Shown: positions 11,019 through 62,153 of the stretch, piece by piece | Layout: every line of letters begins with the position of its first letter | How positions within the stretch are numbered: position 1 is the first letter of the stretch | From: Bacteroidales bacterium | Lineage (GTDB): Bacteria; Bacteroidota; Bacteroidia; Bacteroidales; P3 | Direction of reading: 5' to 3' | DNA: 63,641 nucleotides | Assembly: GCA_017428115.1 (NCBI GenBank) | Contig: JAFRRK010000032.1 | Location: forward strand, 1-63,641 | Notes under the pieces: model-generated | Seen by the model: the letters and a program-made list of their open reading frames with translations, nothing else | Told to the model about the DNA's origin: nothing | Databases searched by the model: none | Program-made: the position numbers and the translations under genes

Positions 11019-11021
11019 AAC

Positions 11022-11931: not shown

Positions 11932-12546
11932 ATGCAACTGCCCTCATCCACATTATCTCAAGCCGTAGAAGCCCTTTCCACCCTTCCGGGCGTTGGCAAA
12001 CGCTCGGCCCTGCGCTTTGCGTTGCACCTGCTCAAGCAGCCTGCCAACGAGGTTCTACAGCTGTCGGAATCAATACGCAAACTTGCCACAGACATCCACT
12101 ACTGCCACATCTGCCACTCCATTAGCGACGAGGACACATGCCCCATCTGCGCCAGTCCTAAGAGGGTGCAGAGCATTATATGTGTGGTGGAGAACATACA
12201 GGATGTGATGGCGATAGAGAACACACAGCAGTATCGCGGACTGTACCATGTGCTTGGCGGTGTGATATCGCCGATTGACGGCATAGGCATCCGCGACCTG
12301 AATATAGAGTCGCTCCTGAAACGGGTGCAACAAGGCTACCCCTCGCCAGTGGAAGAGGTTATCCTTGCCCTGCCGACCACCATGGAGGGCGACACCACCA
12401 ACTTTTATCTCAACAGGCAATTGCAGCCTATGGGGGTGAAAGTGACCACCATAGCACGCGGCATTGCCATTGGCGACAACTTGGAATATGCCGATGAGAT
12501 AACCCTGGGGCGCTCAATAGTGCATCGGGTGCCATTTGCAGAATAG
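11932..12546 (+). CDS. recR: Recombination mediator protein
   Basis: A 204-residue RecR that works with RecO and RecF to load RecA on gapped DNA. Visible features are the N-terminal helix-hairpin-helix ([11 protein letters not shown]), a four-cysteine zinc finger (CHIC...CPIC, about residues 57-73) and a Toprim domain ([14 protein letters not shown] and following). The start ATG 11932 follows a mapped -7 element. A strong terminator lies 34 bp after the stop. Confidence 0.97.
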
Positions 12547-32718: not shown

Positions 32719-33741
32719 TCAAATATTCTCTAATAGGTCAACTATCTGCGCATTAATATCACCCACCTGATTGTAATATGCCTCACGCTTCTGTAGCCAT
32801 TCGTTCTTCTGGGAGTGTTGCGCGAATTGACGTGCCAGAACTATCGCATCGGTTGGGGAGGCTATATTGCGCAACAGGCCGTAACGATCTTGCAGTACAA
32901 CAAAGTTAGACATATCGTTCGGTCCCACAAACGAATTGGAGCGGATGGCCGGGGTGCCTAAGAGGGCTGCCTCGGCTGCCATAGTCTGCGAATCTCCCAC
33001 ATATAAGTCGGCAAAACTCAACACATCGTGAATCAATGAAGCGGGAGTGGGTAGTTTATACTTCTTCAAATGGTCTGGAAGCTCTTTCTCGGACGATATA
33101 TATACCGTCATACTCTTTGCAATTTCCTCCACCAACACCTGTTTCTCTTCGCTGCTGAAACCGCTATTGCCAACATCGTGATTGGCGAACCAACCCACAA
33201 AACGCAACACTGCATAAGGGCGCTTCAATCCATACTCTTCTACGACAGAGGGGTTGGGGGTGAATACTTGTGGGGCTAAATAGCAATCCTCAAATATACC
33301 TGCCACACGGAGATGCTTCTTGCCATAGTCCAACTGAAACGACTGAGGGGTGACCACCTTGGTACATAGCGGAACCACATATCTGTTGGTCAATTTAACC
33401 ACCTCAGAGTCAGGAAAGATGACCGACTTCCTATGTGTGAGCCAAGCAATGAACGTTCCATACCAAGAGCCTTTCGACACAATGACATCCGGATGGAAAT
33501 GACGCACGATAGAGAGGTAATTCTTAAGAATCCCGAATGTCCCCAATATCTTGGCCAACATTTTCTTACTATGTTTTCCAAAGATAGTGTAATCGACGCC
33601 TTCTTCCTTCAAGACTTGAAGCAGCACATCTTTGTCCCGAGCCAATACCAACAGGCTATGACCGTCTGCAGCCAATGTATGCATAACGCTCCTAAACTGA
33701 TAGTAATGCTTAGGATGGTTGAGCTCAAAAATATATCTCAT
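32719..33741 (-). CDS. DUF354 glycosyltransferase-fold protein
   Basis: A 340-residue protein of the DUF354 family, related in fold to UDP-GlcNAc 2-epimerases and GT-B glycosyltransferases and common in capsule loci. It starts MRYIFELNHPKHYYQF, with a histidine-rich N-terminal strand, and has a GDSQTMAAEAALLGTPAIRS segment typical of the nucleotide-binding side. The start overlaps the stop of the acetyltransferase gene (ATGA, 33738-33741). The exact reaction is unknown. Confidence 0.8.
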   Translation of the reverse strand: MRYIFELNHPKHYYQFRSVMHTLAADGHSLLVLARDKDVLLQVLKEEGVDYTIFGKHSKKMLAKILGTFGILKNYLSIVRHFHPDVIVSKGSWYGTFIAWLTHRKSVIFPDSEVVKLTNRYVVPLCTKVVTPQSFQLDYGKKHLRVAGIFEDCYLAPQVFTPNPSVVEEYGLKRPYAVLRFVGWFANHDVGNSGFSSEEKQVLVEEIAKSMTVYISSEKELPDHLKKYKLPTPASLIHDVLSFADLYVGDSQTMAAEAALLGTPAIRSNSFVGPNDMSNFVVLQDRYGLLRNIASPTDAIVLARQFAQHSQKNEWLQKREAYYNQVGDINAQIVDLLENI

Positions 33742-34238
33742 TGTTTGTTCTGTTCCTTGTCCCCAAATGTTCTAATCACTTTTGCAGGCGAGCCTACGGC
33801 CACACAATAAGGGGGTATGTCGTGAGTGACAACGCTGTGGGCACCGATCACTGCGCCCTCGCCTATTGTAACGCCGGGCATAATAATGGCACCAATGCCG
33901 ATGTGAGCCCCATCCTTAATCACCACACGGCCCAACTTGAAGGGGCAGTCGATGGCATACATTCCCGGCCGATAATTGGTGAGGTCACGCTGGTGGCAGA
34001 TGATTACCACACCTTGCGTTATGCCTACACCCTTACCAATCTCTATTAGCTGGGGGCTATGGTCGTCCAAGTAGGCGCCTCTACAGATATGTGTTTTTTT
34101 ACCCACCTTCACACCCCGCATACGGTGGCACGCCACAGTGACAAAATAGGGGAATGTGAAATTGGTCAAAATGGATAGGAAACGAATCCAGACACCCTTG
34201 ATTATCGCTAAGGGTGAGCGTTGGTCAAAATTTGGCAT
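33738..34238 (-). CDS. Hexapeptide-repeat O-acetyltransferase (WcaF/LacA-type)
   Basis: A 166-residue left-handed beta-helix acyltransferase, probably acetyl-CoA-dependent. Hexapeptide turns are seen in IEIGKGVGITQGVVI, VVIKDGAHIGIGAIIMPG and VTIGEGAVIGAHSVV, with the C-terminal signature VAVGSPAKVIR. A His in the loop ICHQRD is a candidate catalytic residue. It likely O-acetylates a sugar of the polymer. It overlaps DUF354. Confidence 0.87.
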   Translation of the reverse strand: MPNFDQRSPLAIIKGVWIRFLSILTNFTFPYFVTVACHRMRGVKVGKKTHICRGAYLDDHSPQLIEIGKGVGITQGVVIICHQRDLTNYRPGMYAIDCPFKLGRVVIKDGAHIGIGAIIMPGVTIGEGAVIGAHSVVTHDIPPYCVAVGSPAKVIRTFGDKEQNKQ

Positions 34239-34298: not shown

Positions 34299-35699
34299 TC
34301 ATCCTTCCCGCCTGTAATCCGACACACAATAATCCTCCTTGCCCGAGGGCAGGCATGGGATGTCATCCACCAGCCTTAATTCCACCTTTGAGCCTACAAA
34401 ATGATTCTGATAATTGGTCACCACATAGTCGAACTGCTCCTTAGGCTCCGAGGGGTCTTTGAGTTTCAATAGTATGCAGATATCTCCATTAGCGTCTTGT
34501 CTGATCTGAAATTTGTCTATCTTGTTGTATATCTTCTGATATTCAACATTATGATAGTCCAATTCAGGATAGAACATCATAGGAAGTACCGTTGGCGATA
34601 TGGGCACCCCCTGCTTATTATACATCAGTTTGCCTGCCCTTCCCATCACCTCACCAATCAGTCTGGTTTGACGTCCGCACGAGCACTTCTCACTTTTCAT
34701 GTATGCCATATCACCCACAGAGTAACGAAGAAACGGGAAGACATAGTTGTCCAAGTCAGTCGAGCACACAAACCCCGTTTCACCCACCGGCAGAGGGTTG
34801 CCCTCTTTGTCGGTTATCTCTATTATGCAAGACTCCTCAGTGATATGGAAGCCCTCTCTCTTGGAACACTCGTGCGACAGTATGCCACCGTCTCCTGCTC
34901 CGTAAGCATCATATACTGGTGCTTGGAACACCTCCTCCAGCTTGCGCCTATATTCGGGCATCAGCACTTCGCCAGTGGTAAGTACAACCTTAATGGGGCA
35001 TACTGGAAGTCCCATTTTTTCGATATATCTTGCTAAGATATAGAGCGAAGAGCCATACCCTCTTATCGCCTGAGGTTTCAACTTCATCAGTTCCACATAA
35101 TTGCGATGCATACCCTCGTCAGTGACATCTGCGCTACTATACTTATAATTGCGCATAATCACGCGATCGTAGAGCCCTTTAAACGACAGCAACTGTTTTT
35201 TCTTATTAATAGAACTTCCCCCGAGCGAAAAAATCTTGTCGCCAAGATGCAGCCCATACCATTCCCAAGCACGAAGGGTAGAAGCCTTCCAGCTGCTCCA
35301 CTCGTCCCAGTCGGTACAGAACTTCAGCGGCATACCCGTACTACCCCCAGTCGAAGACTTACGTATGCGCTTGCTACTGATTGCCGTACTAAAGAGGTCG
35401 TCGTAGTTGTCACGAATAATCTGCTTGGTGAGCACTGGCAGCCGCACCAAGTCATCGCGTGTTTTAATCTGCTCAGGGCTGATAGCATGTGAGTCGAACA
35501 GACGTTTATAGTACGGCACTGTATTGTAACAATGCTTCACCAGCCGTTGCAACTTACTGTCCTGAATAGCCCGTATTTCCAATTCTGAAAGCATGTCGCG
35601 GCTACGCATCTCCTTATACTTCGCCACCACGCTGCTGCCATACACTAGGTCGCCGAGTGGTAGGAAAAGGTATCGGTCAAGGTAATTATAGAGAGTCAT
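34299..35699 (-). CDS. CapK/PaaK-like adenylate-forming ligase
   Basis: A 466-residue protein of the phenylacetate-CoA ligase (PaaK) family, of which CapK-type members occur in capsule loci. The ATP-binding loop is SSTGGSTGMPLKF (about 115-127). Other motifs are YDAYGAGDGGILSHEC and a C-terminal acidic region. It should activate a carboxylic acid as acyl-adenylate for transfer to a thiol or sugar. Its partner may be one of the two carrier proteins of this locus, which is inference. It overlaps the GT4 gene by 14 bp. Confidence 0.85.
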   Translation of the reverse strand: MTLYNYLDRYLFLPLGDLVYGSSVVAKYKEMRSRDMLSELEIRAIQDSKLQRLVKHCYNTVPYYKRLFDSHAISPEQIKTRDDLVRLPVLTKQIIRDNYDDLFSTAISSKRIRKSSTGGSTGMPLKFCTDWDEWSSWKASTLRAWEWYGLHLGDKIFSLGGSSINKKKQLLSFKGLYDRVIMRNYKYSSADVTDEGMHRNYVELMKLKPQAIRGYGSSLYILARYIEKMGLPVCPIKVVLTTGEVLMPEYRRKLEEVFQAPVYDAYGAGDGGILSHECSKREGFHITEESCIIEITDKEGNPLPVGETGFVCSTDLDNYVFPFLRYSVGDMAYMKSEKCSCGRQTRLIGEVMGRAGKLMYNKQGVPISPTVLPMMFYPELDYHNVEYQKIYNKIDKFQIRQDANGDICILLKLKDPSEPKEQFDYVVTNYQNHFVGSKVELRLVDDIPCLPSGKEDYCVSDYRREG

Positions 35700-36640: not shown

Positions 36641-37654
36641 TTATCGCAGGTGGGTCCAATACCATTCGCACGCCTGCTCAAAGCCACTCAATGCATCATA
36701 CTTAGGATTATAGCCGAGCACCCTCTGTGCTTTGATAATAGAGGCCTGCGAGTGGGGGATGTCGCCTGGACGATTCTCACGATAGATGGGTTTGATGTCG
36801 GCTATTGCCTGGTCATATTGCGCCAGGTTGGTACGCAGGCAGGCAAAGAGATCATTCAGCGTAGTGTTGCCACCATAGGCCACATTAAACACCATGTCGA
36901 TAGGGGCATCGGCTGGAAGTGTCTTATTATATAGCGATGCCCTTTCACGTATCACCTCTGAAGACACTGTAGCCGCCAACTCGTTGGCTTGTATCACATT
37001 GTCGATATATGTAAAATCGCGTGAATAGCTACCGTCGCCATTGATGTAAGGAGAATGGTGACTAATCAAAGCCTTCACCCATAGGGGAATCACAGCAGCA
37101 TAGGCACCGTTGGGGTCTTGCCTACGGCCAAAAACGTTGAAATAGCGCAACCCGATGGTCTCAATGCCATAGAGCGATGAAAACACATTGGCATACAATT
37201 CGTTTACATACTTGGTGATGGCATAGGGCGAAAGGGGCCTACCGATGTTGTGTTCTGTCTTTGGCAGCTGCTTGCTGTCGCCGTAAGTGGAACTGCTGGC
37301 TGCGTAGACAAATCTGTGCACACCCGCATCGCGTGCGGCGACCAACATGTTGAGAAATCCGTCTATGTTGTTGGCATTAGTGTTGATGGGGTCGTTGATA
37401 CTCCTAGGAACACTTCCCAGGGCGGCCTCATGGAGCACCACATCGCACCCATCTACCACCTGCCTACAGGTGTCGATGCTGCGGATGTCTCCTTCCACAA
37501 AATGAAAATTAGACTTCGATAGTAGCGGCTCGATGTTATGGCGAAAGCCCGTCGACAGATTATCGAGGCAGGTAACCTCATAGCCCTTGCCCACAAAATA
37601 TTCACATAGGTTTGACCCTATAAATCCAGCACCACCGGTGATTGTCAGCTTCAT
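36641..37654 (-). CDS. UDP-sugar 4-epimerase (WbpP/TviC-like SDR)
   Basis: A 337-residue extended SDR with GGAGFIGSNL (7-16), a catalytic Ser in YAASSSTYGDS and YAITK (Tyr-x3-Lys near residue 155). N-terminal and substrate-loop features (ALGSVPRSINDP, LRYFNVFGRRQDP) match the WbpP/TviC group of UDP-GlcNAc/UDP-GlcNAcA C4-epimerases. It would supply UDP-GalNAc or its uronic form to the polymer. The upstream gap (37655-38002) holds a tandem repeat. Confidence 0.9.
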   Translation of the reverse strand: MKLTITGGAGFIGSNLCEYFVGKGYEVTCLDNLSTGFRHNIEPLLSKSNFHFVEGDIRSIDTCRQVVDGCDVVLHEAALGSVPRSINDPINTNANNIDGFLNMLVAARDAGVHRFVYAASSSTYGDSKQLPKTEHNIGRPLSPYAITKYVNELYANVFSSLYGIETIGLRYFNVFGRRQDPNGAYAAVIPLWVKALISHHSPYINGDGSYSRDFTYIDNVIQANELAATVSSEVIRERASLYNKTLPADAPIDMVFNVAYGGNTTLNDLFACLRTNLAQYDQAIADIKPIYRENRPGDIPHSQASIIKAQRVLGYNPKYDALSGFEQACEWYWTHLR

Positions 37655-38002: not shown

Positions 38003-38962
38003 CTATCTACCCTGAAAATCGATGATACGATGGTCAAGGATAGCTCCTTGTTCGAAGTTGTGACAACCACGCAACACTTCATTATCTAACGGATGGTCCT
38101 CAATGAAGTGGTCGGCATACTTCACAAATTCGGCACTGAGGGTCTCAGTTGCGGTCTTCCAAAAAAGCGAAGGGGTGTGGTCGACGACATAGTGGGTAAT
38201 ACCGTCTACAACGTAGGTAGGCTGTTCGATAGTGGTGGGGACGCTGGTCTCCACTCCCCCGTTACGATCGCACGAGATGTCTATAATAAGCGCATTGCGT
38301 TTCATGCGCTGCAAGTCGCTGCGGTAGATAATGTGGTCGCGACGCGAGGTGTCCCAAAGAATGGCATTTACCACCACATCAAATTGGTCTAATTCCTGTT
38401 GGAATAGTTTTTCGGTCTTACGGTCATATTGTATTACCTCAGCACCCATATAATTGAGTGTTTTAATGGCGCCGCGGGCTATGTTGCCTCGTCCCAAGAC
38501 GGCAGCCTTGGTGTTGTAAGGGAAAATACCGTGGCACATATAGGCATGGAAAACAGCAGCTTCACCTGCTATCTCGTTGTTGCGCCAAAAGCTATGCCTA
38601 CCCTGCTCATACATGTCTTCCCACGCAAACGAAGTAAGTTCACGGGCAATAATGCGGTCGGTGATATCGCGGTTTTGTACGGCATGGACCCACCCAAAGA
38701 TAGATTGGCGATAGAGTTGGCCAAGATATTCGGCATCGCCTATCTTGGGGTCGACAATAACGTCCATCGACAGGACCTGCTCACGATGAGCCACATTGAC
38801 TCCCCTACTCCGATAGTCGTCGTCGGAATAGCCCAGCACATCACCGTAGCCTGCCTCAATCCAAATTTGTTGTGGATGTGTTATTTGTGCAATATCGGCA
38901 GGCACCAAGGCACGCCTGCGCTCATTTTCCTTGTGCGATATGGGCAATCCGATTGTTTTCAT
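38003..38962 (-). CDS. N5-(carboxyethyl)ornithine synthase-like dehydrogenase
   Basis: A 319-residue protein of the alanine dehydrogenase/PNT fold. The whole chain resembles N5-(1-carboxyethyl)ornithine synthase, which joins pyruvate to the side-chain amine of ornithine or lysine using NADPH. Visible are the N-terminal LPISHKENERRRALVP (substrate site) and the Rossmann loop AVLGRGNIARGA (154-165). In a polysaccharide operon the product could be an opine-type amino acid linked to the polymer, as known for carboxyethyl-lysine in some O-antigens. That role is inference. Confidence 0.85.
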   Translation of the reverse strand: MKTIGLPISHKENERRRALVPADIAQITHPQQIWIEAGYGDVLGYSDDDYRSRGVNVAHREQVLSMDVIVDPKIGDAEYLGQLYRQSIFGWVHAVQNRDITDRIIARELTSFAWEDMYEQGRHSFWRNNEIAGEAAVFHAYMCHGIFPYNTKAAVLGRGNIARGAIKTLNYMGAEVIQYDRKTEKLFQQELDQFDVVVNAILWDTSRRDHIIYRSDLQRMKRNALIIDISCDRNGGVETSVPTTIEQPTYVVDGITHYVVDHTPSLFWKTATETLSAEFVKYADHFIEDHPLDNEVLRGCHNFEQGAILDHRIIDFQGR

Positions 38963-42447: not shown

Positions 42448-43176
42448 CTACACACCAAACTTCAATCGTTTCCAATAGTAACTATCAATAGGCTTGCGCC
42501 CTATGCCCTGACGATAACGATAATTGGGCTCGCCATCCGTAAGCACCGGCACAATACCCTTCTCTTCAAGTATACGCTGTGTGTCATCGTTGTATCGCCC
42601 CCAGGTATATGCAAAATAAGGGATATAACTGGGATGAGATGTCAATAGTTCAATACACCTGTCCACTGACTCTTGAAACTGCTGCTGACTCTGGGTGGTG
42701 GCATCATCATGCTCATAGCCATGCATTCCAACAGTTACCCATGGGCGATGCAAACTCCACAGCTGTTCTCGGGTGATATACTGTGGAGCCTCGGCATAAC
42801 CCTCCCTGCGGCTCACCCCGTCGAGATATTTGGGGTTGACAAACAACGTCACTGGAACCTCCTCTCTCTCCAAAAAGGGCAGCACCTCCAACACCGAAGC
42901 ATAACCGTCATCGCAGGTTAGAACCGCATACCGCTGCCTACGACACCATTGGCGGCGCAACTTACTATAAGCCTCCTCGAGCGAGATAAATTCATATCGC
43001 TCTTTCAGCCATCGAATATGGCTCTCAAACACCTCCCTCTGAGACCAATCTACCCGCTTGTTACGACGCTCGTCAAAACAATCCGACACTGCGTGAAACA
43101 CAAAGACCTCTATCGGCCTATAACGCAGCCTCAGCAGTCGGCGGGATATTTTCTTAGCGATTGCGGAATAGCGCAT
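42448..43176 (-). CDS. Polysaccharide deacetylase (NodB domain)
   Basis: A 242-residue carbohydrate esterase 4-type protein. Metal and catalytic motifs are intact: LTCDDGYASV (NodB motif 1), GMHGYEHDD (motif 2, His-x3-His) and a downstream YFAYTWGRYND (motif 3 position). No signal peptide is seen, so it may act on cytoplasmic lipid-linked intermediates or on a small precursor. It overlaps the DUF1919 gene by 23 bp. Confidence 0.85.
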   Translation of the reverse strand: MRYSAIAKKISRRLLRLRYRPIEVFVFHAVSDCFDERRNKRVDWSQREVFESHIRWLKERYEFISLEEAYSKLRRQWCRRQRYAVLTCDDGYASVLEVLPFLEREEVPVTLFVNPKYLDGVSRREGYAEAPQYITREQLWSLHRPWVTVGMHGYEHDDATTQSQQQFQESVDRCIELLTSHPSYIPYFAYTWGRYNDDTQRILEEKGIVPVLTDGEPNYRYRQGIGRKPIDSYYWKRLKFGV

Positions 43177-43804
43177 TGTTTCTTATCTCTCCTGTGTTAA
43201 AGAAATGTACAAAGTCGAACAGCTCATACCATCTGGCCCCTCCATGCAGCAACCCATATTCCAATATGTCGCCCTGCGGATAGTCCTTTCGCTTGATGGC
43301 AAAAACCGACTTGCACTGAGGGAACTCCTTCATGGTCAGTATCACCTTGCGGTCCATCGGCAGGCGGTCGAAAGCCTCTACATGATAGTCGAGGCAGTTG
43401 TCACCATCCATCATCACCACCAAATTGTCGTACCGCACCCTCGCCCTGCGCTCCATCCATTTGCTTCGGGCTTCCTCTACCGAGTGATAATGAGTAAAAT
43501 AGACCCACACATCACCTGGGTCGCCATGCAAGATACCCACTGGGTATTTCCACTTGGACTGGACAAAATCAATATCCAAGGACAGATAATGCTCCAGATG
43601 AGCGCAAAACAGCAAGTACTCGTCGTGGTCGCGTATGCCGCAATTGATGGTTGGCGAGCAGAAGCGAAGCTTCAGTTCATGGAAAATAATCCCCCCCATG
43701 CAGGTGTTGGTAATCAAGGTAAAATCTCTGTTCCTCAATCTCGTACGGTTATACCAACCCAACACATTCCTCACATCGCGTGTCAGACGCTCCCTAATCT
43801 TCAT
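43154..43804 (-). CDS. DUF1919 capsule-locus protein
   Basis: A 216-residue protein matching the DUF1919 family found in capsule and LPS loci, with the N-terminal FTLITNTCMGGIIFHELKL and the central WKYPVGILHGDPGDVWVYF. Its biochemical role is unknown; a transferase of the exostosin or phosphotransferase kind has been suggested only by context. I prefer ATG 43804. A TTG at 43822 would create a TTGA overlap with the GNAT stop and is a real alternative. Confidence 0.78.
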   Translation of the reverse strand: MKIRERLTRDVRNVLGWYNRTRLRNRDFTLITNTCMGGIIFHELKLRFCSPTINCGIRDHDEYLLFCAHLEHYLSLDIDFVQSKWKYPVGILHGDPGDVWVYFTHYHSVEEARSKWMERRARVRYDNLVVMMDGDNCLDYHVEAFDRLPMDRKVILTMKEFPQCKSVFAIKRKDYPQGDILEYGLLHGGARWYELFDFVHFFNTGEIRNNALFRNR

Positions 43805-43818
43805 ACTGAAAAAAGTGG

Positions 43819-44883
43819 TCAAGTTATATTGTCACCCTCACCCGCCTGGATACGCAGGTGACTGTCATAAACGAAATTGGCAGGATATGCAAACGATTTC
43901 TGATAGACCTCCTCAACTGCATAAAGTCTATACTGTGCGACATAGTCGTGCAACTGCTTGTCGGCAGTGCAGAAACGCTGCCTGGGTTCAGCCAGCAAAT
44001 GCTCTGCAACCGCCAGATAGACATCCTCTGCAGCCTGCTGATCATAATAAATATATTTCACAGCCCATTCATCTTTCATGGCTCGCAACACCACAAAGCC
44101 TATCATCACCTCCTGCTTTCTTATCACGATACCATACATCCTAAATTGTGATACCGCCGATGAGAAACGGCAACGCCTTCTCACCCTGCGCCGCAGAGGA
44201 GCCTCTTGCATAAATGGATGCTGCAATATCCAGTCAAACGTTTCCCTTCTCCTAAGAAACAGATCCTCATGGGCATGCGCCTTAATGAAAGCATATATCT
44301 CGTCATCCACAAAACTGACATACTGCAACCTATAGTCACTCTGTGCCAGATGGCGACGCAATTCCTTCTCTTTTGAGTTCAACACCCCGCAAAGCCTCTC
44401 CCAAGCACGGGAAAGAGATGCCTTGAGACCCTTGCTCTGCGTAGCCTTGTGTCTAAGTATGTACTGGGGAAGATATTCCACCTTCAGCCCTTGGTATTTT
44501 AGATTCTCTACCGAGGCATCGGCAGCATCTAAATCAAAATAGTCGTCGCCATACAACTCGCATATGGCAGCAATCACACAATAGGCATACCCCCTCCCTT
44601 CATATTTGGGATTGACATATAGGGTGGTGTTCCAATAGATGGTCCTACCCGCGGGCTTCTCCATTTTGTCGGGAAAGGCATAGGTGTATGCTGCCACCTT
44701 GCCGTCAACAAATAGCGACGACACAATCGTCACGTCATCAGTCACATACGGATTAGTGACCAAGGCGTATGCCCTTGTCTTGTCAATCAGCACCTCCGAG
44801 AGCCCCTCCACAGCATCGCCATGGAGCAGCCAGCCCTTGAGCTGTGAAGCCGTGTACAAACGTAAATCAACCTTCTCCGCCAT
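43819..44883 (-). CDS. GNAT-family acyltransferase, probably two-domain
   Basis: A 354-residue protein starting at the ATG 44881-44883. The N-terminal half has the acetyl-CoA loop of GNATs (NPKYEGRGYAYCVIAAICE, about 92-110). The second half, with ETFDWILQHPFM and VMIGFVVLRAMKDEWAVKYIY, looks like a second divergent GNAT-like lobe, as in FemAB-type aminoacyl transferases. It might acylate an amino sugar or an amino acid. It lies directly after the second carrier-protein gene, so the acyl donor could be carrier-bound, which is inference. Confidence 0.7.
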   Translation of the reverse strand: MAEKVDLRLYTASQLKGWLLHGDAVEGLSEVLIDKTRAYALVTNPYVTDDVTIVSSLFVDGKVAAYTYAFPDKMEKPAGRTIYWNTTLYVNPKYEGRGYAYCVIAAICELYGDDYFDLDAADASVENLKYQGLKVEYLPQYILRHKATQSKGLKASLSRAWERLCGVLNSKEKELRRHLAQSDYRLQYVSFVDDEIYAFIKAHAHEDLFLRRRETFDWILQHPFMQEAPLRRRVRRRCRFSSAVSQFRMYGIVIRKQEVMIGFVVLRAMKDEWAVKYIYYDQQAAEDVYLAVAEHLLAEPRQRFCTADKQLHDYVAQYRLYAVEEVYQKSFAYPANFVYDSHLRIQAGEGDNIT

Positions 44884-44900
44884 CACTATTTATGTTGTGC

Positions 44901-45155
44901 CTACTGGTTACTGTCGCTCAAACGCTTCAATATAGCAGCGACCAAATCGCCCATATTGTGGATGCCTACCAATTCGAAGATTTTAAACTTAAAACCGAAC
45001 TCCCCCTCAATACGTGCCAACAGCTGCATAAAAGACAACGAAGTCCATCCTTCCACAGTATCGGGACCCATTGTGTCGACAATTTCCAACTGGGCATTGT
45101 CAAACACCTCACGCACCAAAGGAGTTAATTTGGCAATTATTTCTTCTCTATCCAT
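44901..45155 (-). CDS. Acyl carrier protein (second of the locus)
   Basis: An 84-residue carrier protein. The phosphopantetheine attachment Ser is S39 in GWTSLSFMQLL, followed by the typical helix and FGFKF strand. It starts at ATG 45153-45155; an upstream in-frame extension runs into repeat element C. It is close in form to the 82-residue carrier at 48553 but separated from it by four genes, so the two may serve different ligases. Confidence 0.88.
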   Translation of the reverse strand: MDREEIIAKLTPLVREVFDNAQLEIVDTMGPDTVEGWTSLSFMQLLARIEGEFGFKFKIFELVGIHNMGDLVAAILKRLSDSNQ

Positions 45156-45172
45156 AATCTGCTTAAATATTA

Positions 45173-45717
45173 CTATAGTTTGACAAGTAAAACAAGTTTG
45201 TATTCTATTCACCCCGAACCGATTTCAGCCATACTCTTTCGTCTCCCTTTTCCCTATCCCTAGTCGTGTTGCTTAGTGGTGGTTGCGCTTTGCCTAGTAG
45301 CTGAGTTCGTCTTTCCTCCGTCTCCGGAAACGAAGGCACGACGTAAACACGACGAAGGCATGGCGTGTGATTGGAGCAAGTGCTGTCGGCCGGTCATCTA
45401 ATATTATAATTATACCCAAAAAGGCAAAAAATAGGGTGCCACTTTTAGAAATAAAAAAGCGGCACAAATGGGACACGATGACGATGACAATGACAACGAG
45501 GATGAATGCATGTATCACCCCTTGGTGGGATAAGTTAGATTACTTATGTTTGATTATCATCAGCCGTTTTCTCGCCTCGGCATACTAGCAAGCTTGTCTG
45601 CGCTTGGCTTTACGAAAACTGTGGTTACTCTCTGAACTTTATTGCAAATAACACTAAAAAAAACTATTTGAAGAAAAATATCATTTTTTGAAGAAAAACG
45701 ACTTGTCAAGCTTTAGG
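45173..45717. mobile_element. Terminal-inverted-repeat element C inside the polysaccharide operon
   Basis: A 545-bp non-coding insert between the VOC and carrier-protein genes. The ends are CTATAGTTTGACAAGT (45173-45188) and ACTTGTCAAGCTTTAG (45701-45716), inverted at 14 of 16 positions. TATTA flanks both sides (45168-45172 and 45718-45722), a likely 5-bp target duplication. Inside are the hairpin core shared with 12.6 and 59.8 kb and a segment like the 67-bp repeat (45560-45618). There is no transposase, so it is MITE-like or moved in trans. Confidence 0.65.
45426..45466 (-). terminator. Terminator-like hairpin within the operon
   Basis: On the minus strand the stem GTGCCGCTTTT/AAAAGTGGCAC (one mismatch) is followed by CCCTATTTTTTG. 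It resembles the recR terminator and points in the direction of operon transcription, between the VOC and second carrier genes. Full expression of downstream genes would need read-through or antitermination. Confidence 0.5.
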
Positions 45718-45719
45718 TA

Positions 45720-46136
45720 TTATTGTCTGTCCGCCTCTGCCTCGACCAGTTCTATCAGTCCCACCTGCATATTATAAAGGTAGCATATCTTTCTATTTTC
45801 CATCGCCACCGACTCAACTGGAAAGAATAGTGGCTTGAAATCTTCCTCATACAAGTCCTCTACTGCCTGCTCGATATCGTCTACCACATAGCAGACATGG
45901 TAAGTGGAACATCCCACCTGCTTTAAGATATTGTCCACCGGCGACTTACCTTCGAGTGGCGATACCAGTTCGATGGTAGTAAAACCCTCCTTGCGAAGGA
46001 ACGCTATGCGTGTGTTCTGCACTCGTTCTTCAAACACTTCGGACAATTGCCACCCTGCCGCGGTGTAGTAGGCAGCTGTAGACGCAATGTCACGCACTGC
46101 ATAGCCAATATGGTCAATCGATTTCAGATGCTTCAT
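45720..46136 (-). CDS. VOC-superfamily protein (methylmalonyl-CoA epimerase-like)
   Basis: A 138-residue vicinal-oxygen-chelate protein. It has two beta-alpha-beta units with candidate metal ligands His9 (DHIGYAV), Glu in TTIELVSP, His in STYHVCYVV and Glu in VGLIELVE, the pattern of methylmalonyl-CoA epimerases. In a capsule locus it may epimerise or isomerise a carrier- or CoA-bound acyl group. Similar genes accompany FkbH-type acyl-ACP blocks, but no FkbH is present. The start overlaps the DltD-like stop (ATGA). Confidence 0.78.
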   Translation of the reverse strand: MKHLKSIDHIGYAVRDIASTAAYYTAAGWQLSEVFEERVQNTRIAFLRKEGFTTIELVSPLEGKSPVDNILKQVGCSTYHVCYVVDDIEQAVEDLYEEDFKPLFFPVESVAMENRKICYLYNMQVGLIELVEAEADRQ

Positions 46137-47092
46137 TTTTTATATAGATTATGGTCTGCAATATATTTCGCCAAATCACGTGTGTATACATCCGACATAC
46201 GTTTGTTAAGATGGTTGGGCGATTCGAAATGGTTTGTATCCATAGACATCCAGTGAGGTGCCACATAGCGGATGCACTCGTATCCGTATTTGTCGGCCAA
46301 TGAATCGTATACGGCATATACCTCCTCTTCGTTTTCCACTCTGTCGGACAGTTCGTACACAATGGGGGGCAACACTAATAACAACTCGGTGCCACTCTGC
46401 TTACATTGCTTCATGAAATCATCGAGCATCGTCACAACCTCAGGCTCAATGGGCTGCTCAAACGACCCATCGAACCATTCGCGATGGGCGTTATAAGGCT
46501 CGTCCAATCCCTGATAACCTTTATAGTGCTCGGGACTGCCAGCATATTTCTTCATCCCTAGGAAATTGAATATTCCATATCGAATGCGTTTGTGATGCCC
46601 AAAATAGCGATAGCAGGGCACGTATGCATCCAACCAGCTGTAGCCGCCATAGCGCATCAAAAAATGGCGGGCGTCGCTGTCATGCATCAACGCCAGAAAT
46701 TGTTCGTTCTCCATATTGGTCTTGGCCTCGCGGCAGCACATGTCGCTATAGTCCAATGCAAGCACAACCAACTTGGGATTCTTCTTTTGCTGTTTTTTCA
46801 ACATATTCCACATAAAATTGTGGTATGGAAAGGTGAGGTTGCTCATGGCAAAAACATACGAATCAGACCCCAACACAGAATCAAGTATCCGGGGGTTGTG
46901 GTCGTGTGCAGCCACACAGTTTCCCAACACCACAAGGTCGGGGTTGACCGTGGTGTCATATACATCGTTCCACACTTCTTGCACATAGTCGGTGCGCTTA
47001 TGCAGACCATGTGTGATAGCACAATCAAGCATATAACCCAATAGTGCAACCACTATTAAAAAAACAGCTATGTTGATTAAGAATTTCTTCAA
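46133..47092 (-). CDS. DltD-like SGNH-fold membrane-anchored protein
   Basis: About 319 residues with an N-terminal signal anchor (KKFLINIAVFLIVVALLGYML) and an extracytoplasmic SGNH-like domain. The first block reads VVLGNCVAAHDHNP (about residues 60-70), where relatives usually have GNSR; the nucleophile Ser is replaced by Cys (TGT) and the next Arg by Val. DltD-type proteins pair with MBOAT acyltransferases to place acyl groups on polymers. The TTG at 47090-47092 fits the anchor; an alternative GTG at 47158 would overlap the MBOAT gene. Confidence 0.72.
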   Translation of the reverse strand: MKKFLINIAVFLIVVALLGYMLDCAITHGLHKRTDYVQEVWNDVYDTTVNPDLVVLGNCVAAHDHNPRILDSVLGSDSYVFAMSNLTFPYHNFMWNMLKKQQKKNPKLVVLALDYSDMCCREAKTNMENEQFLALMHDSDARHFLMRYGGYSWLDAYVPCYRYFGHHKRIRYGIFNFLGMKKYAGSPEHYKGYQGLDEPYNAHREWFDGSFEQPIEPEVVTMLDDFMKQCKQSGTELLLVLPPIVYELSDRVENEEEVYAVYDSLADKYGYECIRYVAPHWMSMDTNHFESPNHLNKRMSDVYTRDLAKYIADHNLYKK

Positions 47093-47120
47093 TGTTGATT
47101 TATTGATTGTTAATATAATC

Positions 47121-48563
47121 CTAAAACACCTGATAGATGAAACTGGTGGTCTCTCCACCGTAAATGAAGATGACTAACACCAACAGCAGATAGACACCCC
47201 AACGCAACACCGTGCTGCGCATGGATGACATCTCAAGACCGTGGTCGCGGTGGCGTTGACACCATTCTACTATGAGCATCGCAACAACAAACAGCCAGTT
47301 GGCGGCAGCTCCTATGTCAGGCAGTGTTAGAAGACCATGGCGGAGGGTGCCCAACTCATGTGCAAACTGTGCCATAGTGGTACAACGAAATATGAGCATG
47401 CCGAAAACCACCAACACAAAGGTGAACAACATCCGCATGAAATCTTTTATCACGGGCAATCCTAACCGATTGGTGGTGACCTCACCAGAGGTGTTCATCT
47501 TGCCCATGAGTATGAGTGGCACAAAGAGCAGGCCATGGTACAGGCCATAGATGACATAGTTCCAGCTAGCCCCATGCCAAAGACCAACGATAAGGAAGTT
47601 GATGATAATGGCAGCAATCATGCCCCACTGGCGGTTTTTGCGGAAGCTGAAGCATAGCGGAGTAAAGACATAGTCGGTCACCCATGTGGTGAGAGACATG
47701 TGCCACCTTCTCCAGAAATCGGCTATATTGAGAGCAAAGAAGGGATAGTTGAAATTCTTTGCCACTTTTATGTTTAGCACCTTGCCCACACCGATGGCCA
47801 TATCGGAGTAGCCTGAAAAGTCGGCATATATCTGGAATGTGTAGGCAAGGGCTACCACTATGGTAGTGCTGCCCGAGGCGGTGACTCCACCACTGCCCAG
47901 ATAGAGGTCTACAAATTGCGCCAGCCCGTCGGCCACCACCATTTTTTTAAACAATCCCCAAAGTATCTGGCGTAATCCATCAGTGGCAGTATTATTGTCA
48001 AATAGGCGTGCTTGACCTAGTTGTGGAATGAAGATGTTGGGACGGTCGATTGGGCCCGAGAGCATACATGGGAAAAAGGCCACATAGGTGGCAAAAGCGA
48101 TAAAGTCGTGGGTGGCTGACATCATGCCGCGGTGTACCTCGATGACGTAACTCACAAGTCGGAAAGTGAAGAAACTGATGCCTAACGGTACGATTATCTT
48201 GAGCGAATGCCAGTTGGTGGGCAGGCCAAAACAGCCTAACAGGTTGCCAAACGATTGGATGAAGAAGTTGGTATATTTGAAATAGACCAGCATGCCCACG
48301 CCCGCCACAATACCCAATAGCAGCAGGCGGTCGGCCCATGGCTTATCCTCATTCCGCTCGATGCCTATGCCTATGAAGTAGAACACCACCGTCGCCGCCA
48401 ACAGCAAAGGCAGCATACGTAGGTCGGCATAGCCATAAAAGAAGTAGCTCGCCAACAGCAGCACCACATTCTGATACAAGCCGCTTTGCCTGCGAATAGG
48501 CAGGTAGTAGAGAGCAAAGACTACTACAAAGAAAGCCAGAAAAGGTAGCGAATTAATTGCCAT
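47121..48563 (-). CDS. MBOAT acyltransferase (DltB/AlgI-like)
   Basis: A 480-residue polytopic membrane O-acyltransferase. The MBOAT hallmarks are present: DFWRRWHMSLTTWV with His288 and GLWHGASWNYVIYGLYHG with the invariant catalytic-site His330. About 11 membrane helices can be drawn. DltB-type proteins move an acyl or aminoacyl group from a carrier protein across the membrane. The gene overlaps the carrier-protein gene by 11 bp, tying the two together. Confidence 0.92.
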   Translation of the reverse strand: MAINSLPFLAFFVVVFALYYLPIRRQSGLYQNVVLLLASYFFYGYADLRMLPLLLAATVVFYFIGIGIERNEDKPWADRLLLLGIVAGVGMLVYFKYTNFFIQSFGNLLGCFGLPTNWHSLKIIVPLGISFFTFRLVSYVIEVHRGMMSATHDFIAFATYVAFFPCMLSGPIDRPNIFIPQLGQARLFDNNTATDGLRQILWGLFKKMVVADGLAQFVDLYLGSGGVTASGSTTIVVALAYTFQIYADFSGYSDMAIGVGKVLNIKVAKNFNYPFFALNIADFWRRWHMSLTTWVTDYVFTPLCFSFRKNRQWGMIAAIIINFLIVGLWHGASWNYVIYGLYHGLLFVPLILMGKMNTSGEVTTNRLGLPVIKDFMRMLFTFVLVVFGMLIFRCTTMAQFAHELGTLRHGLLTLPDIGAAANWLFVVAMLIVEWCQRHRDHGLEMSSMRSTVLRWGVYLLLVLVIFIYGGETTSFIYQVF

Positions 48564-48801
48564 TTACTTTTTTGTTGATGGTCTGTACCATATCCCCTAC
48601 CTTTTGCCACGACATCATGTCCTTCAGTTTGACAGTGAAGCCAAAGGCCTGCTCTATCTCAAAGACAAGATTCATATAGGTGAGGGAGGTCCACTCGGGG
48701 ATGTCGGCAGCAGAGGTGTCGGCAGTGATAACGAGCCCCTCGCGTTTGAAGGTCTTGCAAAACAATTCGGTAAGACGTTGGTAGATTTCTTCTTGGGTCA
48801 T
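48553..48801 (-). CDS. Acyl carrier protein (DltC-like)
   Basis: An 82-residue carrier with the phosphopantetheine Ser at S39 (PEWTSLTYMNLVFEIE). Its start overlaps the stop of the adenylating ligase (ATGA 48798-48801) and its end overlaps the MBOAT gene, giving the ligase-carrier-MBOAT order. This matches the logic of dltA-dltC-dltB, although the canonical dlt order is ABCD. Confidence 0.9.
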   Translation of the reverse strand: MTQEEIYQRLTELFCKTFKREGLVITADTSAADIPEWTSLTYMNLVFEIEQAFGFTVKLKDMMSWQKVGDMVQTINKKVNGN

Positions 48802-50300
48802 TGTATTTCTGATTTGAGTTGAGTTCGATTAATTTTATCGCTGGCATTTAGCGGGAAGCTGTCGCAATAATAAATACGCGTAGGCACCATGTATCCAGGG
48901 AGCTTAGAACGCAGGTATGCCAGCAAGGAGGCAGGGTCCTCTTCGGGGTGCTCCACAAAGAGGGCTATCTCAGTGAGTGCAGAGGCATTCTGGAAAGCAA
49001 TAGCCACAGCACGGTGCTTACGTTCGAAGAACTCTCGGGCATGATATTCTATTTCGCCTAGTTCCACACGGAAACCCTGTATCTTGGCCTGCTGGTCTAT
49101 TCGCCCGCAATACATAATGTTGCCACTGCTATGGCGATAGCAAAGGTCGCCCGTATGGTAATAGCGACGAAGAGTGCCGTCAACTTCTTTCTCGAAAAAT
49201 GCCTCAGCATTTTTGACCGCATTGTTCCAATAGCCTTGCGTCACTTGGTCGCCACTGACGCATAGTTCTCCTTTGTCCTGGCCAGTAACCAAAGAGCCGT
49301 CTTCTGCCAGAATGATGGCGTGGATGTTGGCTAGAGGTTTGCCAATAGAAATAATGCCATTCTCAGAAAGATTGTGTGCCTGGCGTGAAAGCTTGTAGTA
49401 TGTACAATATATAGTGGCCTCTGTTGGGCCATAAAAGTCATAGATATCAGTATTGGAGGCACAGCGGAACCAGTCCTCCATAAGGTCTGTGGGACATGCT
49501 TCGGCAGTAAGTATGCAAGCTCGCAGGGTGGAGGCATCCAACTCGTCGAAATAGGGTCGAAGATAGGTCAGCATTGAGGGCGCCATGGCTCCAAAGGTGA
49601 TACCCTCGTCTTGAATGAGCTGGGCAACATAAAGGTATTTGACCATACCATAGGGCACTGTGTAGAGACTGGCACCACGGGTGAGGGCAACAAGAAAAGA
49701 CTGCACACTGACATCAAAAGTGAGGTCGAACGCCTGCAGGCAACGGTCGGTATGGTCAATATGGATACCCGTCTGCCAAAACGAGTCCATAAAGGCAGCT
49801 ACATTTCTTCGACTGATAGTCACCCCTTTGGGTACACCAGTGCTACCCGAAGTAAACAGTATATATGCCAACTGATCATCGTCGGTAGGCACCCAGCTGA
49901 CCAACATTTCGTCGCCGCCCACTTCTTTCAACTCGTGGGTATTGAGGGCCTGGTAGGGCGAATTGTCGACTGAGTCAAGTATCAACTCTGTCCCCACCTG
50001 ACTGACAATACCTTGGTTGCGTTCTAGCGGCTGATTGGGATGAAGGGGTACGTATGCCATGCCCTCCATCCAAAGGGCAAAAATGGCGGCATAGGTATCA
50101 ATATCGTCGTGGATGGCAAGAGCAGCTATTTTGTCTTTACCTCCCAGCTGCTGTAGACCTTGGCGTATGGCAACTACACGACAGGCTAGTTGATGATAGG
50201 TATAAACTGTTCCAGAAATGTTCAGTGCGGCACGCTGGGCATAATCTCTGAGCCCCTGCGTGAATGGAGTCAATATGAAGGAGGAAAATCTACTTTCCAT
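48798..50300 (-). CDS. Amino-acid adenylating ligase (DltA-like)
   Basis: A 500-residue ANL enzyme related to D-alanine-carrier ligase and NRPS adenylation domains. Motifs: LFTSGSTGVPKG (148-159), FDVSV (195-199, with Asp196 at the position that binds the amino group of amino acids), YGPTEAT (290-296), YHTGD (381-385) and a catalytic Lys489 (NASDKINRTQL). The Asp argues for an amino-acid substrate, identity unknown. It should load the DltC-like carrier encoded next. It overlaps the upstream GT2 gene by 11 bp. Confidence 0.9.
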   Translation of the reverse strand: MESRFSSFILTPFTQGLRDYAQRAALNISGTVYTYHQLACRVVAIRQGLQQLGGKDKIAALAIHDDIDTYAAIFALWMEGMAYVPLHPNQPLERNQGIVSQVGTELILDSVDNSPYQALNTHELKEVGGDEMLVSWVPTDDDQLAYILFTSGSTGVPKGVTISRRNVAAFMDSFWQTGIHIDHTDRCLQAFDLTFDVSVQSFLVALTRGASLYTVPYGMVKYLYVAQLIQDEGITFGAMAPSMLTYLRPYFDELDASTLRACILTAEACPTDLMEDWFRCASNTDIYDFYGPTEATIYCTYYKLSRQAHNLSENGIISIGKPLANIHAIILAEDGSLVTGQDKGELCVSGDQVTQGYWNNAVKNAEAFFEKEVDGTLRRYYHTGDLCYRHSSGNIMYCGRIDQQAKIQGFRVELGEIEYHAREFFERKHRAVAIAFQNASALTEIALFVEHPEEDPASLLAYLRSKLPGYMVPTRIYYCDSFPLNASDKINRTQLKSEIQ

Positions 50301-52007: not shown

Positions 52008-53057
52008 TTATCGTACTAGCAGTGAATAGAGGCGTTCGGCCGACTGGTCCTTGGTAGAGGGGTGCCTATGTATGGCACGGTAGCGAAGCAGGGCTTTGGC
52101 AATGCGTATACGCGAAGCCACACCGCGCTGCCCCTTGGCAAAGTACTGGTAAATAAAGGCATCGAACTGGCCACAGTATGCCGCAGTAGCTGCGCTTATA
52201 GGCACCCTCCGCAACATACACTGACGGAGGAGAGTGGCAAGTTCGCGATTGTATTGAGTAAGGAATAGTTTGCGAAAACGGGGTATGAGCAAAGCATGCT
52301 GTAGTGGCAACAGGGCATAGAGCAATTGGCGGTCAAAGCCATGGTCGGAATTACTTATGCTGGCTCCATACTGCACCCACACATAGTCGGCTCGGTCGAT
52401 AAATATCACCTTGCCAAACTGGAGATGATAATAGGTAATGATGGTGTCGTCAAAAAGTTTGCCAAACAGCTCGGCAGGATTCTCGCCCACGGGGTTGCGG
52501 CGTATCATATAGGTAGGGTTGAGGCCGCAAAGCCCCCGCACAATCAGGTCAGTGGCTGTTAGTTTCGCGCCCTCTTTCAGACGCGGATGCTTAGGCCACG
52601 CATATCCGGTAGTGAGGGGAGCACCGTCACGCACCTGCCACACACGCTGCTGGCACATGGCACAATCTGGATTTGCCAACAAGGCATCGAGCTGCAGCTG
52701 GTATATGTCGTCGCTCCTAAGGTAGTCGTCAGCATCAATGTTTACAAAAAACTCACCACGGGCGTGACGATAAGCATTAGCCTTGTTCCATCCACATCGC
52801 TCGCTACGCCCCGAAGGGTTGCAGAGGTCTGAGTTGCACTTAACGCCATGCACTATGCCTGGATGCTGCTGCTGATATTGTTGTATCAACTCCCAGGTGC
52901 CATCGGTCGAACGGTCGTCTGATACAACAACCTCGTAGGGCACACTAAGACGCTGTGCCAATATGCTCTCCAAACAACGGGCCAGTAAGTGGCACTGATT
53001 GTGCGACACCACCAACACGCTGAGCACTACAGATGGGGTTGGATTGTCTACTGCCAT
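52008..53057 (-). CDS. GT2-family glycosyltransferase
   Basis: A 349-residue GT-A enzyme with VVSHNQCHLLARCLESIL, VVVSDDRSTDGTWEL and the metal site FVNIDADDYLRSDD. It has a longer C-terminal helical region than its neighbours (about 100 residues, basic). It overlaps the stop of the Wzt gene by 10 bp, so it is probably expressed in step with the transporter. Confidence 0.92.
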   Translation of the reverse strand: MAVDNPTPSVVLSVLVVSHNQCHLLARCLESILAQRLSVPYEVVVSDDRSTDGTWELIQQYQQQHPGIVHGVKCNSDLCNPSGRSERCGWNKANAYRHARGEFFVNIDADDYLRSDDIYQLQLDALLANPDCAMCQQRVWQVRDGAPLTTGYAWPKHPRLKEGAKLTATDLIVRGLCGLNPTYMIRRNPVGENPAELFGKLFDDTIITYYHLQFGKVIFIDRADYVWVQYGASISNSDHGFDRQLLYALLPLQHALLIPRFRKLFLTQYNRELATLLRQCMLRRVPISAATAAYCGQFDAFIYQYFAKGQRGVASRIRIAKALLRYRAIHRHPSTKDQSAERLYSLLVR

Positions 53058-54286
53058 CGCGATTGCAGTACAACTTTCGAGGCGCGATCGTAAGGGGTGA
53101 TGCGCTTAATGAAGGTTTCATTCTGAGTGACACGGAAACGGATGCAGCTATATACCATGTCGAAAGTAGTATAGGGATTGCCCAACCAAATACTGGAGTT
53201 GTAGCATCCAGGGGCAAAGTTGACACCCAGCATACGGCAACGCACAGTGGCCTTCTCGCCCTGCGACATGTGGGGAATGTGGTAATCGTCATCATAGTTA
53301 GAAACGTGGCATATCTGCTTGCCCAGCTCGTCAGTGATATCGAAACTGATGTCGACCATATCGGCATCGTGCACTGCCTCTATATCAACCTCTACAGTGA
53401 TGTCCTCGCCCAGAGTAACAGTACCGCTCGACAAGCGAAAGTCGCGTACACGGACAGCACCGTTACCGCGGCGGTTAAAGTCACCCACATTCTTCATGCC
53501 ACCCAGATAGTAGTCAACCACTTCGCCCACCTCACCAGTCATCTCCACCATGCCATTCTTTAACAATATGCCGTGGCGGCACAACTGCTGAATACTGGCC
53601 ATATTATGGCTGACGAAAAGAACTGTGCGTCCTTCGGAGCTACTTACATCCTGCATCTTGCCGATAGCCTTCTTCTGAAACTCGGCATCGCCGACAGCCA
53701 GCACCTCATCAACCACCAATATTTCAGGCTCAAGAAAAGCTGCAACGGCAAAACCCAAGCGCACAGTCATACCCGAACTGTATCGCTTGACAGGCGTGTC
53801 GATATAACGTTCACAACCACTGAAGTCAACAATCTCGTCAAGCTTGCGCCCAATCTCCGCTTTGCTCATTCCTAATATGGCGCCGTTGAGGAAGATGTTC
53901 TCTCGTCCGGTCATCTCTGAGTGGAAGCCCGTACCCACCTCAAGCAGCGAACCGATGCGGCCACGCGCCTTGATAGTTCCCGTTGTGGGACCAGTAACTT
54001 TGGAAAGAATCTTGAGCAAAGTGCTCTTACCAGCACCGTTACGGCCAATAATGCCAATAACGTCGCCTTGTTCCACTTTAAAATCGATGTCGCGCAAAGC
54101 CCACACATATTCGCTGTCGGCCTTCTTGGAACGGTCGTTGATTGAACCCACCTTCAGGTAGGGGTCTTCCTTACCCCTGACGTTGACGGTCCACCAACGG
54201 TTCAGGTCGTGACTAAGGGTACGCGTAGATACCAAGCCCAACCTATATTGCTTAGAAACATTGTTAAATTCGATTGCTGTAGCCAT
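53048..54286 (-). CDS. wzt: Polysaccharide ABC transporter ATPase (Wzt-like)
   Basis: A 412-residue ATP-binding subunit. The ABC domain (about 1-250) has Walker A IGRNGAGKSTLLK, the signature YSSGMTVRLGF, Walker B EILVVDEVLAVGDAEF and the H-loop FVSHN. The remaining 160 residues form a beta-rich C-terminal domain like that of Wzt proteins that recognise a modified chain end (as in E. coli O9a). This suggests export depends on a terminal modification. It works with the permease at 56438. Confidence 0.93.
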   Translation of the reverse strand: MATAIEFNNVSKQYRLGLVSTRTLSHDLNRWWTVNVRGKEDPYLKVGSINDRSKKADSEYVWALRDIDFKVEQGDVIGIIGRNGAGKSTLLKILSKVTGPTTGTIKARGRIGSLLEVGTGFHSEMTGRENIFLNGAILGMSKAEIGRKLDEIVDFSGCERYIDTPVKRYSSGMTVRLGFAVAAFLEPEILVVDEVLAVGDAEFQKKAIGKMQDVSSSEGRTVLFVSHNMASIQQLCRHGILLKNGMVEMTGEVGEVVDYYLGGMKNVGDFNRRGNGAVRVRDFRLSSGTVTLGEDITVEVDIEAVHDADMVDISFDITDELGKQICHVSNYDDDYHIPHMSQGEKATVRCRMLGVNFAPGCYNSSIWLGNPYTTFDMVYSCIRFRVTQNETFIKRITPYDRASKVVLQSRWQ

Positions 54287-62062: not shown

Positions 62063-62153
62063 GGAAAGGTGCTCGAGTGGTTGAAGAGGCCCGCCTGGAA
62101 AGCGAGTAAGCGTTAAAAGCGCTTCAAGGGTTCGAATCCCTTCCTTTCCGCCA
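62063..62153 (+). tRNA. tRNA-Ser (anticodon GGA), CCA encoded
   Basis: The acceptor stem GGAAAGG (62063-62069) pairs with CCTTTCC (62143-62149), discriminator G62150 and encoded CCA 62151-62153. The anticodon loop CTGGAAA (62095-62101) gives GGA at 62097-62099. A long variable arm (AAGCG/CGCTT) marks a serine tRNA, and the T arm is AAGGG-TTCGAAT-CCCTT. The anticodon stem has a C-A mismatch (C62091 against A62105, positions 28 and 42). An integrase gene follows 116 bp downstream, so the 3' end is the likely attachment site. Confidence 0.95.

Follow-up and report, generated by a model that had tools for sequence, protein, structure and literature searches.

A putative two-branch, carrier-based aminoacylation module in a surface-polysaccharide locus of a gut Bacteroidales bacterium

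The stretch of DNA analyzed here, referred to as the window, is a 63,641-nucleotide (nt) contig (JAFRRK010000032.1) of a gut Bacteroidales assembly (GCA_017428115.1; 103 contigs, 80% complete), and its surface-polysaccharide locus encodes what we read, with moderate confidence, as a two-branch, carrier-based aminoacylation module of one ligase, two carriers, and two transferases. The genes in question follow WbqC on the minus strand in the order ligase, ACP1, MBOAT, SGNH, VOC, ACP2, GNAT, DUF1919, and polysaccharide deacetylase. An original prediction, made from the same DNA, had described positions 44901..50300 as a Dlt-like block that esterifies a surface polysaccharide with an amino acid; that range takes in ACP2 but ends before the associated GNAT and deacetylase genes. 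The nine genes are as follows (pLDDT, predicted local distance difference test):

48798..50300, minus strand: amino-acid-adenylating ligase (LIG); PF00501, E 1.2e-58; pocket D196 V197 Q200 A238 I263 T265 F289 I297 Y298 K489
48553..48801, minus strand: carrier ACP1 of the MBOAT-branch type, Ser39; PF00550; nearest kin, besides that of the related locus L143, mostly MBOAT-locus carriers
47121..48563, minus strand: MBOAT acyltransferase; PF03062, E 2e-20; His288 and His330; C-terminal acyl-shuttle motif FIYQVF
46133..47158, minus strand: SGNH/DltD-like protein; model pLDDT 89; Cys81 in place of the nucleophile Ser, His316 kept; start uncertain
45720..46136, minus strand: VOC protein, methylmalonyl-CoA epimerase-like; might epimerize the acyl group on the carrier
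44901..45155, minus strand: carrier ACP2 of the GNAT-branch type, Ser39 (from the ATG at 45155); PF00550; belongs to a set mostly of GNAT-locus carriers
43819..44886, minus strand: tandem-GNAT acyltransferase (GNATbig); model pLDDT 88.6; proposed aminoacyl-ACP:amino-sugar N-transferase
43154..43822, minus strand: DUF1919 protein; PF08942; present in 8 of 27 GNAT loci
42448..43176, minus strand: polysaccharide-deacetylase-like protein; PF01522; motifs TCDDG (87) and HGYEH (152)

Pfam matches, catalytic residues, and a structural model of the SGNH protein bear out the prediction that a ligase (D196, K489), a carrier (S39), an MBOAT with both His residues, and a DltD-like protein follow one another with overlaps. 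Judged from their coordinates, ligase and ACP1 overlap by 4 nt, ACP1 and MBOAT by 11 nt, MBOAT and SGNH by 38 nt (the GTG start of SGNH being uncertain), and SGNH and VOC by 4 nt. The ligase scored 309 bits against the amino-acid adenylation domain model, slightly below its cut-off of 317, and fell under the equivalog cut-offs of the DltA models (TIGR01734, 226 bits, cut-off 560; PRK04813, 233 bits, cut-off 476). Its D196 and K489 align with GrsA positions 235 and 517. Within the host assembly, the window ligase was the sole match to itself at E ≤ 0.001, and the AcpS family had one match.

Relatives of the ligase were gathered by scanning one genome per species, which yielded 462, and the best 80 of these 462 were used; the titles of the 80 loci name Bacteroidales, Bacteroides species, Flavobacteriaceae, and Chitinophagaceae, among others. 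Architectures were labeled with hidden Markov models (HMMs) whose seeds were proteins of the window and of relatives, and unless stated otherwise the locus counts cover the first 7 kb downstream of the ligase, on its own strand. Some of the 80 loci lie on the same contigs as the G-numbered loci or are near-copies of one another (L105/L108, L142/L147); since the loci are mutually related, the counts record association and not independent events. By these labels, 27 loci have a tandem GNAT, 33 have an MBOAT without GNAT (MBOAT-only), and 20 have neither; L073 has an MBOAT ~5 kb after the ligase together with a tandem GNAT. Three loci (L142, L146, L147) carry a tandem pair of ligase genes ahead of the carrier, MBOAT, and SGNH genes, and in L115 (Bacteroides clarus) a 608-residue protein with ferredoxin-like Cys motifs, noted by eye, is encoded between ligase and carrier (10493-12319). 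Genes for a FabH-like synthase and a short-chain reductase are found in ligase loci L071, L075, L078, L092, L094, and L098, and a MaoC gene in L093; the FabH-like/reductase loci are perhaps small carrier-bound acyl-assembly lines set within polysaccharide loci.

The origin of the ligase points to the GNAT branch. A search of 99 genomes returned some ligase match at E ≤ 0.001 in 56, many of them weak and partial, and ten genomes of the same genus had a ligase of at least 47% identity. Nine of these ten loci (L013-L021) combine the ligase with a tandem-GNAT relative and a carrier, as detected by HMM, and no MBOAT was labeled within their 20-kb stretches; the tenth, G036 (47%), has ligase, formyltransferase, carrier, MBOAT, and SGNH genes. 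Among the 17 stretches fetched, L023, L026, L027, and L028 (ligases of 27-41%) stand outside the nine-of-ten count, and L029 comes from another part of the G037 contig. Ligase and carrier trees were quick trees with SH-like approximate likelihood-ratio test (SH-aLRT) support and no bootstrap. In the 81-row ligase tree, the window and L143 group with the GNAT-only locus L070 (SH-aLRT 100), and all three fall within a set of 31 rows comprising 25 GNAT loci, 3 with both transferases, and 3 others (SH-aLRT 100). Because nine of the ten same-genus ligases sit with an ACP2-type carrier and a GNAT, and because the tree puts the window in the GNAT clade, the ligase-ACP2-GNAT-deacetylase set looks like the older core, beside whose ligase ACP1, MBOAT, and SGNH would have been added; this is the simplest story that the sequences suggest. 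The original prediction had taken the four Dlt-like genes as the unit, a view that the same-genus loci and both trees do not support, since they point to ligase, ACP2, and GNAT as the earlier one. It had also noted a second carrier, VOC, and GNAT nearby, which are better seen as belonging to the core than as accessories.

ACP1 and ACP2 share 38% identity (blastp), and their best blastp matches were GNAT-locus carriers for ACP2 and mostly MBOAT-locus carriers for ACP1. ACP1 is a PP-binding carrier that general acyl-carrier models alone match, below cut-off, with no match to a Dlt model. In the carrier tree, ACP2 falls within a 26-row set, 20 of whose members are followed by a GNAT (SH-aLRT 97), and ACP1 pairs with its L143 counterpart and is otherwise nearest to MBOAT-locus carriers; its wider placement is weak, and the tree has few columns and drew a long-branch warning. 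Between VOC and ACP2 lie ~560 nt without an obvious gene (45156-45719; GC content 0.41), where L143 has an interval of 53 nt, and blastn found no similarity of this interval to L143 or L070.

The Asp at the amino-group position is present in 81 of 81 ligases (window plus 80 relatives), which upholds the earlier assignment of an amino-acid-type ligase. The ten-position pocket of the window ligase reads DVQAITFIYK; it is not known to fit any code well, the closest being that for proline. Every locus with GNAT (28, window included) has a pocket of this DVQ type, as do 21 of the 33 MBOAT-only loci, and therefore the same amino acid appears to feed both branches in many loci. A second class (DL-LLCVIFK and close forms, mostly DLMLLCVIFK) was found in 11 of the 33 MBOAT-only loci, one further locus having DLQPLGFIYK; this class shares residues with DltA, a Cys among them.

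Since searches of PDB sequences with the SGNH and GNAT proteins gave nothing useful, the structures of both were predicted. The GNATbig model contains two GNAT folds in a single chain and matched tandem GNAT and N-myristoyltransferase folds; orthologues of GNATbig follow the ligase in relatives. A deacetylase gene lies within 7 kb downstream of the ligase in 25 of the 27 GNAT loci, in none of the 33 MBOAT-only loci (one, if counted anywhere in the locus), and in 1 of the 20 with neither transferase. Three loci (L099, L102, L127) have two tandem-GNAT genes each, with DUF1919 and carrier genes between, perhaps for two acceptors. Small GNAT or formyltransferase genes downstream of the ligase show the opposite distribution, 0/27 GNAT loci as against 23/33 MBOAT-only loci (small GNAT in 21, formyltransferase in 3); the small GNAT also occurs in 10 of the 20 loci with neither transferase. 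These enzymes are likely to perform an N-capping step on the amino group. The positive charge that the original prediction expected the amino acid to add is thus not shown, considering that 23 of 33 MBOAT-only loci encode such a likely capping enzyme; the window cassette itself encodes none. Outside the genus, a single strand of G093 (L024) encodes an MBOAT, an SGNH protein, a ligase, a formyltransferase, one carrier, and a tandem GNAT (partly by eye), and therefore both transferases can share a locus outside the genus of the window. G065 has ligase, small GNAT, carrier, and tandem GNAT genes.

On the other branch, the MBOAT is related to solved DltB structures by PDB search and retains both His residues, although it scored below the DltB equivalog (TIGR04091, 201 bits, cut-off 375). 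In support of the original prediction, the carrier-MBOAT-SGNH set recurs beside this ligase family in the labeled loci; the full order is present in L143, the four-gene type also in L137, L148, and L149, and an SGNH protein accompanies 28 of the 33 MBOAT-only loci. Neither Pfam nor NCBIfam, DltD models included, matched the SGNH protein at E 0.1. Its model has an SGNH fold, for which the Foldseek matches include DltD structures, and begins with a helix that we read as a membrane anchor. Cys occupies the nucleophile position solely in the window and L143 among 50 SGNH proteins, 47 of which have Ser, and the Asp position is occupied by Ser in the window protein.

VOC enzymes related to that of the window perform alpha-carbon chemistry on thioesters, and for this reason we propose that it may be an epimerase. 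It scored below the methylmalonyl-CoA epimerase equivalog (TIGR03081, 59.9 bits, cut-off 115), and its HIGY, IELV, YHVCY, and LIEL stretches, which presumably hold the metal ligands (His/Glu), align with 2qh0/3hdp. Of the 80 loci, 12 have a VOC gene in the ligase cassette, GNAT and MBOAT loci as well as others; the gene lies downstream of the ligase in 11 of them and upstream in L088. In L074, L087, and L133 it separates ligase and carrier, and in L083 it follows the carrier. None was labeled in L070. The gene may have been present before ACP1, MBOAT, and SGNH were gained. A housekeeping role as methylmalonyl-CoA epimerase is not favored in view of its rarity across genomes, since at E ≤ 1e-8 matches were obtained in 5 of 61 genomes, including that of the window (its sole match there), the other four being at most 35% identical.

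These observations are consistent with the following scheme. The ligase would adenylate one amino acid and load it onto the phosphopantetheine arms of both ACP2 and ACP1. In the older branch, the deacetylase, conserved alongside the GNAT, may free the amine of an N-acetylated sugar, to which the tandem GNAT would transfer the aminoacyl group of ACP2 as an amide, in the cytoplasm. In the added branch, the MBOAT would take the acyl group from ACP1 and park it on the Tyr of its own FIYQVF motif, and the Cys-type SGNH protein would then transfer it, in ester linkage, to a hydroxyl on the exported chain, by analogy with PatA/PatB and Dlt. VOC may determine which configuration the amino acid has on its carrier, this being the least certain step. 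A further-reaching reading, possible but rather doubtful, is that transferases on opposite sides of the membrane, fed through two carriers by one ligase, attach amino acid to a single polysaccharide by both amide and ester bonds, that VOC epimerizes on the carrier, that SGNH works through a Cys thioester, and that the ligase-carrier core is a plug-in platform of Bacteroidota, to which capping, formylating, extending, or epimerizing enzymes are added for making side groups.

Known systems share parts of this design. Like Dlt, which D-alanylates teichoic acids by means of DltA, DltC, DltB, DltD, and DltX, the window has a ligase, a stand-alone carrier, an MBOAT with catalytic His, and an SGNH partner in one operon; unlike Dlt, it has a shuttle motif fused to the MBOAT, Cys for Ser in SGNH, a second carrier with a GNAT, and a setting in a Gram-negative polysaccharide locus, and its ligase and MBOAT score under the equivalog cut-offs. 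As to a separate DltX microprotein, the open reading frames considered were those of at least 60 residues. Dlt-like genes also occur in a Gram-negative bacterium in the dra locus of Bordetella. An acyl-Tyr shuttle mechanism has been published for PatA/PatB (PMC12148441), a kind that the window resembles in the C-terminal FxYxxF motif of its MBOAT and in its SGNH partner; that paper states that MBOAT-SGNH pathways other than Dlt are without a carrier protein, whereas the window has a carrier and a ligase, an overlap of carrier and MBOAT genes, and no SGNH catalytic Ser. In the wfp locus of Flavobacterium psychrophilum, also of the Bacteroidota, an O-polysaccharide-dedicated carrier is proposed to make a dihydroxyhexanoyl group with ketoacyl-ACP synthases and to feed an N-acyltransferase acting on an amino sugar, a PglD homologue being proposed there as well (PMC6519341), where the window has an amino-acid ligase and a tandem GNAT. 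Vibrio cholerae AlmEFG, in which the ligase AlmE puts glycine on the carrier AlmF for lipid A glycylation, is likewise a Gram-negative ligase-carrier pair and, as described, differs in its lipid A acceptor and AlmG transferase (PMC12930378). As to products, amino acids and N-acylated amino acids are described as side groups of many bacterial O-antigens (PMC10609480), and aminoacyl and N-acetyl-aminoacyl amides on amino sugars, with N-acetylalanyl, N-acetylglycyl, and N-hydroxybutyryl-alanyl groups, are likewise reported there for several (PMC10609480, PMC3210612). In searches of open-access literature we found no description of this gene set, or of a ligase-carrier route to O-antigen aminoacyl groups, which is weak evidence of absence.

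Other readings of the locus were weighed against the two-branch module. That the Dlt-like block acts alone, the ligase loading ACP1 and the MBOAT and DltD-like protein esterifying the polysaccharide with an uncapped, positively charged amino acid while ACP2 and GNAT serve separately, seems unlikely to us: the gene order and overlaps agree with it, as do the window's pocket in MBOAT-only loci and L137, L148, and L149, which have ligase, carrier, MBOAT, and SGNH without a labeled capping gene (though with the second pocket class), but the ancestry of the ligase with ACP2 and GNAT, the probable N-capping enzymes in 23/33 MBOAT-only loci, and the scores below Dlt equivalog cut-offs argue otherwise. 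Possible, if rather doubtful, is that the transferred group goes beyond a simple aminoacyl, a ligase-made starter acquiring a cap or an extension (N-acetyl, N-formyl, hydroxyacyl) while on the carrier and being transferred only then. The small GNAT (21/33), formyltransferase (3/33), and FabH-like and reductase genes of relatives, the tandem-GNAT loci G065 and G093, the N-acyl-aminoacyl groups of O-antigens (PMC10609480, PMC3210612), and the F. psychrophilum proposal (PMC6519341) all favor it; the span from ligase to deacetylase in the window, however, has no such gene but only VOC.

We consider it quite improbable that MBOAT and SGNH are an ordinary acetyl-CoA-dependent O-acetylation pair that lies beside a carrier gene by chance. 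MBOATs are common, with matches in 91 of the 99 genomes, and among the 73 compared (proteins of at least 380 residues; the L039 carrier assigned by hand) the FxYxxF motif is universal, with or without a carrier gene, and 40 lack a carrier directly upstream, including the four nearest after L143. Against this, ACP1 overlaps both the ligase and the MBOAT genes and its kin after L143 are mostly MBOAT-locus carriers, a carrier does lie directly upstream of 33 of the 73, and in 20 relatives' loci picked by MBOAT similarity alone such a carrier accompanied 3 (window, G036, G019), so that the pairing is not simply usual. Scarcely credible is a chimeric assembly of two loci, which the 103 contigs and 80% completeness of the assembly might invite: L143, a separate record, repeats the nine-gene order, with eight compared proteins 68-92% identical to those of the window. 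The arrangement in the window is therefore no assembly error, and an artefact of this kind was ruled out.

Several points nevertheless weigh against the two-branch module. The nearest MBOATs after L143 (L090, L091, L138, L134; 52-56%) have no carrier directly upstream; each adjoins a ligase gene, but the sampled set was chosen by ligase, and whereas in L134 and L138 the MBOAT-SGNH pair comes before the ligase and carrier genes, in L090 and L091 it is directed away from the ligase. The association of GNAT with deacetylase comes mostly from one ligase clade, its 27 loci being non-independent, and L073 and L079 (2/27) are GNAT loci without a labeled deacetylase. G065, with a small GNAT, and G093, with a formyltransferase noted by eye, pair a capping candidate with a tandem GNAT, unlike the 80-locus set, and FabH-like, reductase, or dehydratase genes are inserted in relatives, so that the transferred group may exceed a plain aminoacyl. 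The Cys nucleophile together with Ser at the Asp position may mean that the SGNH step is altered or lost. Considering that the host assembly is 80% complete, a second ligase could be missing from it.

The surrounding minus-strand locus encodes a NusG-like protein, a PF02397 sugar transferase, Wzm, GDP-sugar enzymes, Wzt with a Wzt_C domain, glycosyltransferases, and WbqC, and is of the ATP-binding cassette (ABC)-exported O-antigen or capsule type, two possibilities that the genes do not separate. Its exporter genes are:

53048..54286, minus strand: Wzt-type exporter ATPase with C-terminal Wzt domain; PF00005, PF14524
56438..57307, minus strand: Wzm-type exporter membrane protein; PF01061

Elsewhere in the window, 38003-38962 encodes an alanine-dehydrogenase-like protein of 319 residues, to which NCBIfam (at a score far under cut-off) and PDB weakly assign that identity; such a gene also stands at the far locus end in relatives such as L070, L086, L103, and L120, and that it might be a carboxyethyl-amino-acid synthase is only a thought. 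A second AMP-forming enzyme of the region, of the PaaK / coenzyme F390 synthetase kind (34299-35699), adjoins a hexapeptide acetyltransferase-like protein (33738-34238), and a sugar epimerase resembling TviC (36641-37654; 363 bits, cut-off 760) is followed by a glycosyltransferase. A tRNA-Ser (GGA) lies close to the right end of the window (62063-62153).

The locus and its relatives supply a concrete, testable gene set, namely ligase and carrier plus either tandem GNAT and deacetylase or an MBOAT-SGNH pair. A carrier-fed MBOAT with a built-in shuttle combines features of Dlt and PatA/PatB that are treated as separate in PMC12148441, and the Cys-type SGNH partner and ligase-linked VOC are specific, checkable oddities. 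The gene set offers a possible account of how amino acids come to be joined to the surface polysaccharide of these bacteria.

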